A stretch of DNA of 64,000 nt from positions 53,108-117,107 of the forward strand of contig JACWDT010000003.1 in NCBI GenBank assembly GCA_014653985.1. The letters run 5' to 3'. This document shows positions 22,158 to 26,312 of the stretch, in pieces (the stretch's first letter is position 1; each line of letters starts with the position of its first letter). This DNA comes from Pelagibacterales bacterium SAG-MED22. Its GTDB lineage: Bacteria > Pseudomonadota > Alphaproteobacteria > Pelagibacterales > Pelagibacteraceae. The notes beneath the pieces were generated by a model. That model had not been told where the DNA came from. It made no database searches and worked only from the letters and a program-made list of their open reading frames with translations. The position numbers were made by a program, and so were the translations under genes.

Positions 22158-23843
22158 TTAGGAATTTTTAAGGCCTTCAATTACTTTAATATTTATTTTA
22201 TTCCTCATACTGTCTTCAGTATCATCAAACTTTAAAACATTATTCCAAAAATATCGTGCTTGTATTTTGCGATTTAATTTCCACAATATATCTCCGTAAT
22301 GATCGTTCACTATTGGATCCTCAGGCATCAACTCCACCGCCCTTTTAAGATATTTTTCAGCCTCAATGTAATCGTCTATAAGATAATAAGCCCATCCAAT
22401 TGAGTCGATGATATAAGGATCATTACTTTTTGACTCGTATGCCCTTTTCAACATTTCCATTGATTCATCGATTTTATAATCACGTTCTAGCCACGAATAT
22501 GCCAAATAATTAAGAACATAAGCATCATCAGGATTTATTTTTAGAGAATTAAGTAAATCTTCGTCTGCTTTTTTATAATCTCCTAACCTTTCATAGCTTC
22601 CCCCTCTTCGGTAAAATAAATCTGCTCTAAGTTCAGATTGATCATCTAATGTTTCAATAATTTGAGAGTAATATTCAATTGCTTTTTGATAATTTTTTGA
22701 ATTTTTATAAAAATTTGCAATATCAAATTGCATTTTTAAGTTTGGATTATCAATTTGATTAAACTTTGCAGTAATAAACTTTATTGCATTGTCATAATCT
22801 TGTTCCTCAACAATTATTTGAGCTTCTTTTTTTAATCTAAACCAATAATAAAACTCGTCTTTTTTATTAAATTTTGTAATGATTTTTTTAACTTTATTAA
22901 ATTCTTCATTTAAATAATAGTTTTCTACAACCAAAGATAAATTAAACTCAAACTTTGGATTTAAATAATTTGATAAATTTAAATAAAAATTTGATTTCTC
23001 AAAATTATCTTGGGATGAATAAAGATTGGACACCAAAAATAAAAATTCGGAAACAACATCTTTGTGATTTTGACATGAAAAAATTTTATTAAATTCCTTA
23101 AATTTTTTATTCTCTACCCAACTTTTACTTTGGGATAGTAAAATGGTTGAGTTCATATAATCAAATTGACTAACCACATTTTCTGCTGCATTTATTTTAT
23201 TTTTATCAATTAAATAATTAAGATAAAAAAAGATATATCTAGAATAATCTCCTTGTTGACTATTAATTAAATTAAGAAAATAAGCTCCAGTCTTTTCATC
23301 GTTTAAATAACATCTTTGAAAAGTTTCCGCTATTAAAGACAAATTCCCAAAATTTTTTTTATTATTTAAAATTTTTTTATTTTTAAAAGTGTGGATATAT
23401 TGTTTTAAAGCCTCAAAAATAACTAAGTTTATTCTATTTTGATCTTGAAATTTTAAACTTTGAGTTAAATGTTCATCTGCCTCATCAAAATTATTTTTTT
23501 TTAGGCTATCAATAATTAAAATTAAATAGGCGTCGTAAAAATCTGCATTGTCTTTATTACCATTATTTTTGATCACATTAATTGCTTGTGGAATTTTATT
23601 GTCTAAAACTAATGAATTTACATACCTTTTTAAATAAGAGTCATGTTTGTTAAGTAAAACTTTTGAAAGATTGAAAAATTTTAATGCTTTAGAATTATTT
23701 TGATTTTCATATGCAATAATTCCTGAAAAATAATTTGATAAATCCCTAGAATTAAAGTCAGTAAAACTAGTACTTTTAGAATATATGGGTGTCTGATAGA
23801 GTAATCCAATAATAAATACCAATTTTATTAATTTTTTTAACAT
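22158..23843 (-). CDS. tetratricopeptide-repeat protein, probably exported
   Basis: A 561-residue protein with an N-terminal signal-like segment (LIKLVFIIGLLYQTPIYSKS). The C-terminal third holds clear TPR units, e.g. YQKAIEYYSQIIETL, YKKADEDLLNSLKINPDDAYVLNYLAYSW and YIEAEKYLKRAVELMPEDPIVNDHYGDILW; the rest is also helical and asparagine/lysine rich. TPR arrays are protein-binding scaffolds. It sits just upstream of ispE, as TPR proteins often do in alphaproteobacteria, but this does not define a function. It is divergent from the UDG gene with only 11 nt between start codons. Confidence 0.8.
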   Translation of the reverse strand: MLKKLIKLVFIIGLLYQTPIYSKSTSFTDFNSRDLSNYFSGIIAYENQNNSKALKFFNLSKVLLNKHDSYLKRYVNSLVLDNKIPQAINVIKNNGNKDNADFYDAYLILIIDSLKKNNFDEADEHLTQSLKFQDQNRINLVIFEALKQYIHTFKNKKILNNKKNFGNLSLIAETFQRCYLNDEKTGAYFLNLINSQQGDYSRYIFFYLNYLIDKNKINAAENVVSQFDYMNSTILLSQSKSWVENKKFKEFNKIFSCQNHKDVVSEFLFLVSNLYSSQDNFEKSNFYLNLSNYLNPKFEFNLSLVVENYYLNEEFNKVKKIITKFNKKDEFYYWFRLKKEAQIIVEEQDYDNAIKFITAKFNQIDNPNLKMQFDIANFYKNSKNYQKAIEYYSQIIETLDDQSELRADLFYRRGGSYERLGDYKKADEDLLNSLKINPDDAYVLNYLAYSWLERDYKIDESMEMLKRAYESKSNDPYIIDSIGWAYYLIDDYIEAEKYLKRAVELMPEDPIVNDHYGDILWKLNRKIQARYFWNNVLKFDDTEDSMRNKINIKVIEGLKNS

Positions 23844-23854
23844 TTAGACATTGT

Positions 23855-24577
23855 ATGACTAAAAAAGAAATAAATCAAAATGACAAATTTAGGGAAGAAT
23901 TGATAAATACAATTGAACCAAACTTTGTTTTTAATGATAAACCTATAAATAGATTTATTAACAATGATACAATTCTTGATGATAATCAGTCTAAAAATAA
24001 GAGTGAGTTACTACTAAAACTAAAAAAACTGATCAATTCAATTGAAAATTGTAAATTGAAAGAAAATTCAAGAAATTTAATTCTAGGAGATGGAAACATA
24101 AATAGTCCTATAATGTTAATTGGTGAGGCCCCAGGTTTAGATGAAGACAGTAGCGCAAATACTTTTATGGGAGAGGTTGGAGAGCTCCTAGATAAAATGC
24201 TGCTGGCTATCGAGATAAAAAGAAAAAATATTTATTGTAGTTATTCAATAAATTTTAGACCCCCTGAAGACAGAAAGCCAACATCAGTAGAAATCAAAAG
24301 ATATTCTGTGTTTTTAAAAGAGCACATATCAATAATCGAGCCAAAAATTGTTATTTTAATGGGAAGTACAGCTATGGAGGCAGTTACAGGAATTAACGGT
24401 AAAATTTCGAGTGAAAGAGGAAAATGGAAAGAGATCATACTAAATGGTCGAACCTATCCTTTGATGATAACTTTTAATCCATCATACTTAATAAGGTTTC
24501 CAGAAAATAAGAAATACTCATGGGAAGATCTCAAAAAAATAAGAGAGAAGATTAAAGGCTTAAATTTAAAAGTTTAA
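23855..24577 (+). CDS. uracil-DNA glycosylase, family 4-like, degenerate iron-sulfur site
   Basis: A 240-residue UDG-fold protein. Motif 1 GEAPGLDED (residues 90-98) is of family 4 type and LLDKMLLAIEI follows as expected. Family 4 enzymes bind a 4Fe-4S cluster through four cysteines. Here only C66 aligns; the first is replaced by I63, the KCRPP cysteine by F134 (INFRPP) and the last by Y150. The motif 2 HPS is NPS (residues 208-210, TFNPSYLIR). So the fold is clear, but the cluster is unlikely and catalysis may be altered. The stop overlaps the rnhB start (TAATG). Confidence 0.82.
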   Translation: MTKKEINQNDKFREELINTIEPNFVFNDKPINRFINNDTILDDNQSKNKSELLLKLKKLINSIENCKLKENSRNLILGDGNINSPIMLIGEAPGLDEDSSANTFMGEVGELLDKMLLAIEIKRKNIYCSYSINFRPPEDRKPTSVEIKRYSVFLKEHISIIEPKIVILMGSTAMEAVTGINGKISSERGKWKEIILNGRTYPLMITFNPSYLIRFPENKKYSWEDLKKIREKIKGLNLKV

Positions 24578-25149
24578 TGAAAATAATAGCAGGTGTAGAT
24601 GAAGTTGGTAGAGGAAGTTTAATTGGACCAGTTTATGCGGCAGCTGTTATTTTGAATAAATCAATTAATTCTAAAACACTCAAAGATTCTAAAACACTAA
24701 CTAAGGAAAAAAGGGAAATTTTATTTAATTACATCAAAAAAAATTCTATTTGGGCTACTGGTAAGGCATCTGTTAAAGAAATAGATAAAATAAATATTCT
24801 TCAGGCAAGTTTGCTTGCCATGAAAAGAGCAATAAAAAAACTCAAAAAAAAACCTTCACAAGTTTTAATAGATGGAAATAAAATACCAGATTTAAAAAAT
24901 TACAACTTAAGAGCAATAGTAAAAGGTGACCAAAAAATACCCTCTATTTCAGCTGCATCCATTATTGCTAAAGTAACTAGAGATAAATTTATAAAAACAT
25001 TAGCGAAAAAGAACAAAGGATATAATTGGGATCAAAATTTTGGTTATGGAACTAAACAGCATTTAAAGGCAATAAAAAAGCTTGGTGTTAACAAACATCA
25101 TAGAAAAACATTCTCACCAATATCAAAACTTAATAAACACTATATCTAG
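24577..25149 (+). CDS. rnhB: ribonuclease HII
   Basis: RNase HII removes ribonucleotides misincorporated in DNA and RNA primers. The 190-residue protein shows GVDEVGRGSLIGPVYAAAVIL with the catalytic Asp-Glu pair at the N-terminus, VLIDGNKIP with the third acidic residue, the KGDQKIPSISAASIIAKVTRD block and GYGTKQHLKAIKKLG near the end. It is coupled to the upstream UDG by a 1-nt overlap. A 92-nt gap then separates it from ccrM. Confidence 0.96.
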   Translation: MKIIAGVDEVGRGSLIGPVYAAAVILNKSINSKTLKDSKTLTKEKREILFNYIKKNSIWATGKASVKEIDKINILQASLLAMKRAIKKLKKKPSQVLIDGNKIPDLKNYNLRAIVKGDQKIPSISAASIIAKVTRDKFIKTLAKKNKGYNWDQNFGYGTKQHLKAIKKLGVNKHHRKTFSPISKLNKHYI

Positions 25150-25176
25150 TTATATTAAATTTTAGCCACACAAAAC

Positions 25177-25181
25177 GAGTC
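25177..25181. promoter_or_regulatory. GANTC methylation site (GAGTC), distal, upstream of ccrM
   Basis: The first of three GANTC sites within 49 bp between rnhB and ccrM. GANTC is the palindromic recognition sequence known for CcrM. It lies about 20 bp upstream of the predicted -35 box. Confidence 0.6.
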
Positions 25182-25209
25182 TAAATATTTCAATCTCAGG
25201 TTGACCGAA

Positions 25210-25214
25210 GAATC
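25210..25214. promoter_or_regulatory. GANTC methylation site (GAATC) in the ccrM promoter spacer
   Basis: This site lies in the spacer between the predicted -35 and -10 boxes of ccrM. Its methylation state could change polymerase or repressor binding; that is inference. Confidence 0.6.
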
Positions 25215-25220
25215 CATTTG

Positions 25221-25225
25221 GAGTC
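25221..25225. promoter_or_regulatory. GANTC methylation site (GAGTC) overlapping the ccrM -10 box
   Basis: The last two bases of this GAGTC are the first two bases of the predicted TCTAAT -10 box. Methylated adenines would therefore sit at the edge of the melting region. Confidence 0.6.
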
Positions 25226-25241
25226 TAATTATTTTTTAAAA

Positions 25242-26312
25242 ATGAAAACTGATTTCAAAAATAAAATTATTAACGGAGATAGTCTCGAAGAATTAAAAAA
25301 AATTCCACGTGAAACTTTTGATTTAATTTTTGCAGACCCTCCATACAATCTTCAATTAAAAAGCGAATTAGTCAGACCAGACAGATCTAAAGTAGATGCT
25401 GTAAATGACAAATGGGATCAGTTCGAAAATTTTAAAAAATACGATGAGTTTACATATGCGTGGTTATCAGAATGTAAAAGAATTTTAAAAAAAGATGGAG
25501 CAATTTGGGTTATTGGGAGTTATCATAATATTTTTAGAGTAGGAACTGCAATTCAAAATTTAGGATTTTGGATTTTAAACGATGTTATTTGGAATAAAAA
25601 TAATCCAATGCCTAATTTTAGAGGAACACGATTTACCAACGCTCACGAAACTTTGATTTGGGCATCTAAAAGTGAAAAATCAAAATACACATTTAATTAT
25701 CAATCACTAAAATGTTTGAATGATGATTTACAAATGAGATCAAACTGGGATCTTCCGATTTGCAGTGGTGCAGAAAGATTAAAGAAAAACGGCAAAAAAG
25801 TGCATTCAACTCAAAAACCAGAGGCTTTACTTCATAGAGTTTTATTAGCATCTACGAATAAAGATGACATGATTTTAGACCCTTTTTTAGGTTCAGGAAC
25901 AACAGCAACTGTAGCGAAAAAACTTGGTAGAAATTATTTTGGTATAGAAAAAGAAAAAAATTATTTCAAAGCTGCAGAAAAAAGAATTAAAAATGCAAAA
26001 CCTATTGAAGATGATTTACTTGATACTCTTAAAAATAATAGATCAAAACCTAGAATACCATTTGGATCATTAGTGGAGCTTGGGATAATTAAGCCAGGTA
26101 CTAACATTTTTGACAATAAGAAAAAAATTACTGCAAAAATTTTAGCAGATGGAAGTATAAAGCATAACCAATCTGAAGGCTCTATTCATAAAGTTGCAGC
26201 TACTATTTTAGGTGCTGAAAGTTGCAATGGATGGACATATTGGCATTGTGATATCAACGGCAGAATATATCCAATAGACTACTTAAGACAAAGATTAATC
26301 TCAAAAAATTAA
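25242..26312 (+). CDS. ccrM: CcrM-type orphan adenine-N6 DNA methyltransferase (predicted GANTC)
   Basis: CcrM methylates adenine in GANTC and helps time cell-cycle transcription in alphaproteobacteria. From the ATG at 25242 the protein is 356 residues. Motif IV (FADPPYNLQL) comes first and motif I (LDPFLGSGTTATVAKKLGRN) later, the beta-class order. The C-terminal domain with GSIHKVAATILGAESCNGWTYWH is typical of CcrM and absent from most restriction-linked enzymes. No endonuclease gene is adjacent, so it is an orphan. The ORF track used a TTG at 25218, but that lies inside the predicted promoter. I saw no GANTC in its own coding sequence. It overlaps the convergent FAD gene by 4 nt. Confidence 0.93.
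   Translation: MKTDFKNKIINGDSLEELKKIPRETFDLIFADPPYNLQLKSELVRPDRSKVDAVNDKWDQFENFKKYDEFTYAWLSECKRILKKDGAIWVIGSYHNIFRVGTAIQNLGFWILNDVIWNKNNPMPNFRGTRFTNAHETLIWASKSEKSKYTFNYQSLKCLNDDLQMRSNWDLPICSGAERLKKNGKKVHSTQKPEALLHRVLLASTNKDDMILDPFLGSGTTATVAKKLGRNYFGIEKEKNYFKAAEKRIKNAKPIEDDLLDTLKNNRSKPRIPFGSLVELGIIKPGTNIFDNKKKITAKILADGSIKHNQSEGSIHKVAATILGAESCNGWTYWHCDINGRIYPIDYLRQRLISKN

Follow-up and report, generated by a model that had tools for sequence, protein, structure and literature searches.

The core promoter of ccrM, the gene for the GANTC adenine methyltransferase CcrM, is predicted to hold a conserved methylation-responsive switch in SAR11, and comparison between genomes supports this reading well. 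CcrM probably controls its own production in these bacteria, which are among the most abundant in the sea. The locus lies in the window, the 64-kb stretch of DNA analyzed here, and comprises the following features:

24577..25149, + strand: rnhB (RNase HII), putative, the upstream neighbor, an ORF of 190 aa
25177..25245, + strand: full-length match to RF01784 'bablM sRNA', here re-read as probable promoter DNA
25177..25181, + strand: CcrM site U (GAGTC), 24 bp upstream of TTGAC
25189..25195, + strand: TTCAATC, near-invariant in the genus, forming an inverted repeat with the -35 element
25201..25206, + strand: -35 element TTGACC, from the sequence
25210..25214, + strand: CcrM site A (GAATC), inside the 17-nt spacer
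25221..25225, + strand: CcrM site B (GAGTC), sharing bases with the first two of the -10 element
25224..25229, + strand: -10 element TCTAAT, with a 17-nt spacer at 25207-25223
25242..26312, + strand: ccrM, GANTC adenine methyltransferase, 356 aa, from the ORF, its domains and a structure alignment

The initial annotation had placed GANTC sites at 25177, 25210 and 25221, none inside ccrM (25242-26312) and one in rnhB at 24685, together with a promoter TTGACC-17-TCTAAT that has site A in its spacer and site B overlapping the -10 element, and a count on the sequence bears all of this out. The ccrM promoter is absent from the output of an automatic sigma70 scan, as that scan accepts a -10 element only if its second base is A. 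The ccrM transcript would start at about 25236, some 6 nt 5' of the start codon, and so be nearly leaderless. A TTG start at 25218, within the -10 region, adds 8 codons to the ccrM ORF; we judged it spurious, and a gene caller could wrongly put the ccrM start there.

The ccrM product contains N6_N4_Mtase and RAMA domains according to a domain search, and 344 of its residues align with the Caulobacter CcrM structure 6pbd. Its best NCBIfam model is CcrM (NF050803), at 585 bits and below the curated cut-off of 830, and similarity to CcrM extends over the full length of the protein, the C-terminal RAMA domain included. The enzyme is therefore expected to methylate GANTC, which is known to be methylated in other Pelagibacter (PMC9516812).

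GANTC is scarce in the window, with 94 sites observed against 174 expected from dinucleotide shuffles. Density is 3.4 per kb in intergenic DNA and 1.4 per kb inside genes, in a count that takes the site at 25221 as coding owing to the spurious TTG start; denser GANTC between genes is known for alphaproteobacteria (PMC3973325). Three sites within 49 bp arose in 16% of random placements of 94 sites, so the clustering is not significant. As such a triple is not improbable by chance, the case rests on comparison between genomes. Other groupings of sites were also seen. Three GANTC at exact 30-bp spacing lie at 22402-22466 of the window, inside a long reverse-strand ORF (22158-23843). Another dense cluster (L211:1437-1530, near 417,770 on contig C1 of the same genome) includes the palindrome GAGTCAAAATTGACTC and lies in the gap that separates the end of a pyruvate phosphate dikinase gene from a small lipoprotein-like ORF.

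The conservation check called for by the initial annotation was run on 167 SAR11 ccrM upstream regions, namely 80 loci from named genomes, 86 from genomes of the order (a set that holds the window's own locus a second time) and the window. These counts take in near-identical genomes, with 104 sequences being distinct in the 54 bp that were scored. TTGAC was found in all 167 loci, 30-62 nt 5' of the start codon. Site A (GANTC at TTGAC+8 to +10) was present in 151/167 and site B (GANTC at +19, +20 or +25) in 157/167, and both in 146/167, which upholds conservation of the sites and of their spacing. A GANTC in the stretch upstream of TTGAC, like site U, occurred in 140 of the 167, and its N takes all four letters.

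The usual layout in the genus has site A at TTGAC+9 and site B at +20. In one subclade of the genus site A lies at +8 with site B unmoved, while in a second SAR11 family (f2) site B lies at +19. In genus g5 it is found at +25, within the -10 hexamer and 16 bp from site A; the pair thus does not need to keep a set helical phase. One core site is retained in genus g3; in g2 and g4 the core sites are mostly gone, although CcrM and GcrA are both still there. From these alignments the sites appear to be maintained while their exact sequence and position drift slightly. Two g4 loci (L143 and L144) have TTAA-N7-TTAA, a CtrA-box-like sequence, directly past the -35 element upstream of ccrM, where core GANTC is absent; this may be chance in AT-rich DNA, and the clade is not known to have CtrA.

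The inverted repeat formed by TTCAATC and the -35 element (25189-25205 in the window) is near-invariant in the genus and absent from family f2. It is possible, judging from this pattern, that it serves as an operator for some protein. Such a repeat would fit the explanation that an ordinary promoter or another operator is what has been conserved and that the GANTC matches are a by-product, as would the N of site B, which stays G within the genus as if it were part of a fixed sequence, and the fact that some genera manage without core sites. A within-genus parsimony test of the N against fixed positions was weak, the N of site B being nearly always G, and comparison at greater depth is more useful. 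We nevertheless find this explanation very unlikely, since the rest of the window avoids GANTC and the pair of motifs recurs at the same offsets, with a different N, in families whose surrounding sequences are quite different.

This recurrence was seen in an outgroup of 66 ccrM upstream regions from 40 non-SAR11 alphaproteobacterial families, which are the better-scoring ccrM matches in a sample of the class and no random draw. The pattern TTGAC-N1-6-GANTC-N3-12-GANTC was found in 28/66 of these regions and 18/40 families (0.000 in shuffles). Counted from every upstream TTGAC, GANTC starts peaked at +8 (19), +9 (7), +10 (10) and +19 (33/70), and in a coding control (22 TTGAC) there was no GANTC start at +8, +9, +10 or +19. 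Site B of the outgroup covers about -16 to -12, so that with 17-nt spacing its last base is the first of the -10 element, and site A lies about 9-11 bp 5' of it, sliding by 1-2 bp. The distance from TTGAC to site B was constant in 25 of the 28 pair-carrying regions. CtrA boxes occurred in 4/66 regions, all of them lacking the pair, which is too few to claim a swap. The initial annotation had proposed a compact methylation feedback switch kept by a streamlined genome; conservation on the ccrM core promoter upholds the switch, but its presence in 18 of 40 other families means that it is not peculiar to such a genome.

Across the 1.19 Mb of the genome, the double arrangement TTGAC-N1-5-GANTC-N4-14-GANTC turns up only once, and that copy is the one at ccrM; the reversed-pattern control has none. 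The check elsewhere in the genome likewise came out in favor of the initial annotation. The pattern is present in 86/97 SAR11 genomes, mostly at ccrM among the places compared. In several family f2 genomes (e.g., G023:C1:427938, G014:C3:99788 and G065:C16:6849) a double match such as TTGACCTTGAGTCATTGTTTGAAGAGTC recurs at a further place away from ccrM, where it may belong to a coding sequence or mark another promoter. A wider regulon of GANTC core promoters was considered and rejected, as in the genome TTGAC-N1-5-GANTC was found 11 times against 21 in the reversed control, TTGAC-N13-16-GANTC 7 times against 18, and GANTC followed by TANNNT was rarer than in the control (98 vs. 210).

A different identity has been given to the same DNA. 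An RNA family search returned a full-length match to RF01784 at 79 bits (gathering score 38). The family goes back to a 2009 screen of Ca. P. ubique for structured RNAs, which ranked it among the less well supported motifs and in which rnhB likewise neighbors the bablM element (PMC2704228). The authors of that study described stem 1 as invariant and noted that the loop-closing pair of stem 2 often fails (PMC2704228). The full-length match above the gathering score would agree with conservation of a structured RNA in which the GANTC sites are incidental, but we give this almost no credence. Stem 2 is site A paired with site B, with exactly the N left unpaired, as happens whenever a palindromic site whose middle base is free occurs twice. 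N:N pairing was at chance level (21/84 vs. 19.9 and 6/28 vs. 8.1 in shuffled sequences), and broken or shifted A sites were found without compensation in B, so the structure fails the compensatory-change test. In family f2 the register of stem 2 fails, yet both GANTC sites persist in most sequences, and stem 1, which includes the -35 element, is near-invariant in the genus and not kept in f2. Furthermore, the predicted transcript start lies at the end of the match, and almost all of it would thus be untranscribed from the ccrM promoter. The model matches 5/20 SAR11 loci outside the genus core and 0/20 other alphaproteobacterial loci, most of which have the same DNA grammar. RF01784 is probably the ccrM promoter DNA, wrongly listed as a small RNA; the DNA and its rnhB-methylase context are the same in both descriptions, RNA there and promoter DNA here.

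As for the protein that might read the sites, a single GcrA is encoded in the window's genome, and it contains both a methyl-DNA-binding and a sigma-binding domain. Residues 1-49 align closely with the structure of the Caulobacter DNA-binding domain, and the CKWPIG...FCGR region aligns with the Caulobacter sigma-binding domain; the score against the NCBIfam GcrA equivalog model, 117 bits, does not reach the cut-off of 280. GcrA was found in 83/97 SAR11 genomes and in 52/60 other alphaproteobacteria, and across the latter 60 its presence had no clear correlation with the site pair. No CtrA was found among the four OmpR-type (Trans_reg_C) regulators of this 96.6% complete genome, the best of which scores 136 bits with the CtrA model, whose cut-off is 350, and is PhoB. 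The absence of CtrA agrees with Brilli 2010 for Pelagibacter (PMC2877005). Read from the sequence, 25150-25241 contains no CtrA box (TTAA-N7-TTAA). By eye, site U (CGAGTCT) fits the extended Caulobacter GcrA motif YGAKTCK, and sites A and B fit it partly. GcrA of Brevundimonas showed no preference for YGAKTCK (PMC7987155).

GANTC within or adjoining the -35 and -10 elements, GcrA and CcrM, three of the marks of a methylation-dependent sigma70 promoter, are all present by sequence. We consider it reasonably likely that the ccrM core promoter is a sigma70 promoter gated by GcrA and CcrM methylation, whose transcription would depend on the mark made by its own product. CcrM would methylate the GANTC sites, after which GcrA and RNA polymerase would be recruited and the promoter opened. 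Each passage of the replication fork would shift the promoter to the hemimethylated state, and in SAR11, which have no CtrA, the methylation gate might be the main cell-cycle input to ccrM. GcrA is known to bind methylated GANTC and to recruit polymerase, and mutation of GANTC cuts such promoters by 60-80% (PMC3667746); it binds domain 2 of sigma and promotes open complexes (PMC3667746, PMC7403470). Caulobacter promoters that have GANTC in the spacer, between the -10 and -35 elements, are switched on at 40-60 min (PMC4287350).

The opposite sign of feedback must also be weighed. Full methylation beside the -10 element could hinder sigma70 without any part for GcrA, and passage of the fork would then open the promoter until CcrM closed it again. 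Site B overlaps or abuts the -10 element as such hindrance would have it, Caulobacter ccrM has been described as transcribed only from the hemimethylated chromosome (PMC2217572), and in Agrobacterium GANTC methylation represses the promoter of gcrA, an effect that persists in engineered E. coli, where alphaproteobacterial factors are lacking (PMC11514494). Taking parB, by inference, as the origin marker, ccrM lies at about 0.15-0.18 of the chromosome from it in seven closed genomes of the genus, and would therefore become hemimethylated early in replication; the distance is about 0.24-0.28 in three g2/g3 genomes. On the other side, GcrA-dependent promoters with the same spacer geometry are activated (PMC4287350, PMC3667746) and full methylation gives the highest ftsZ activity (PMC3708114), although neither is direct evidence on the ccrM promoter. 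In a cultured Pelagibacter 99.86% of GANTC is fully methylated (PMC9516812), and a promoter silenced by full methylation would consequently be off most of the time. Negative feedback of this kind seems to us rather unlikely. From geometry and conservation, the sign that we infer is activation rather than simple repression. Several points count against activation through GcrA and CcrM: core sites are lost in g2 and g4 despite the two proteins, GcrA and the pair show no clear association in other alphaproteobacteria, only site U fits YGAKTCK in full, the g5 spacing is 16 bp, and repression by full methylation has precedents (PMC11514494).

The nearest known systems are the GcrA-dependent promoters of Caulobacter mipZ, podJ and ftsN (PMC3667746, PMC4287350, PMC3885167), which likewise have GANTC in or near the -35 and -10 elements with CcrM as writer and GcrA as reader; mipZ, too, has two juxtaposed sites. 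Unlike in these genes, the SAR11 target is ccrM itself, which would make a direct loop, GcrA dependence is putative, and the second site is nearly fixed relative to the -10 element across families. The Caulobacter ccrM promoter also contains GANTC, and methylation probably influences expression of the gene there (PMC2217572, PMC3667746); the initial annotation had drawn on this likeness. The likeness is imperfect: Caulobacter ccrM is driven by CtrA, whereas no CtrA was found in the window's genome and no CtrA box in this intergenic region, and the geometry fits methylated GcrA/sigma70 promoters better. Control could not be derived from site counts by Brilli 2010. A 2021 prediction named the same gene and regulator: from the GANTC content upstream, ccrM was placed among the core targets of GcrA in alphaproteobacteria (PMC7987155). 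That model ignored site position, and what is added here is the position rule, its spread in SAR11 and the single occurrence in the genome. In the open-access literature we came across no earlier account of a fixed second site, of the SAR11-wide arrangement or of the identity with RF01784. Tentatively, and with more doubt than confidence, the arrangement might be an ancestral alphaproteobacterial switch, two methylated sites separated by about one turn of the helix, with the second site ending where the promoter melts. CtrA-less SAR11 would then have it as a self-contained GcrA/CcrM loop, with the ccrM promoter among very few core-promoter targets left.

If our reading of RF01784 is right, an Rfam family listed as 'sRNA' is in fact promoter DNA, and its pairing arises from a methylation site that is palindromic. 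A hairpin with a single mismatch is what any two GANTC will resemble, and other RNA predictions in alphaproteobacteria could hold the same artefact. The loose idea that GANTC near ccrM matters becomes a position rule open to mutation tests in tractable relatives that share it. For SAR11 the ccrM promoter would offer a concrete, testable control point for the timing of the cell cycle without CtrA.
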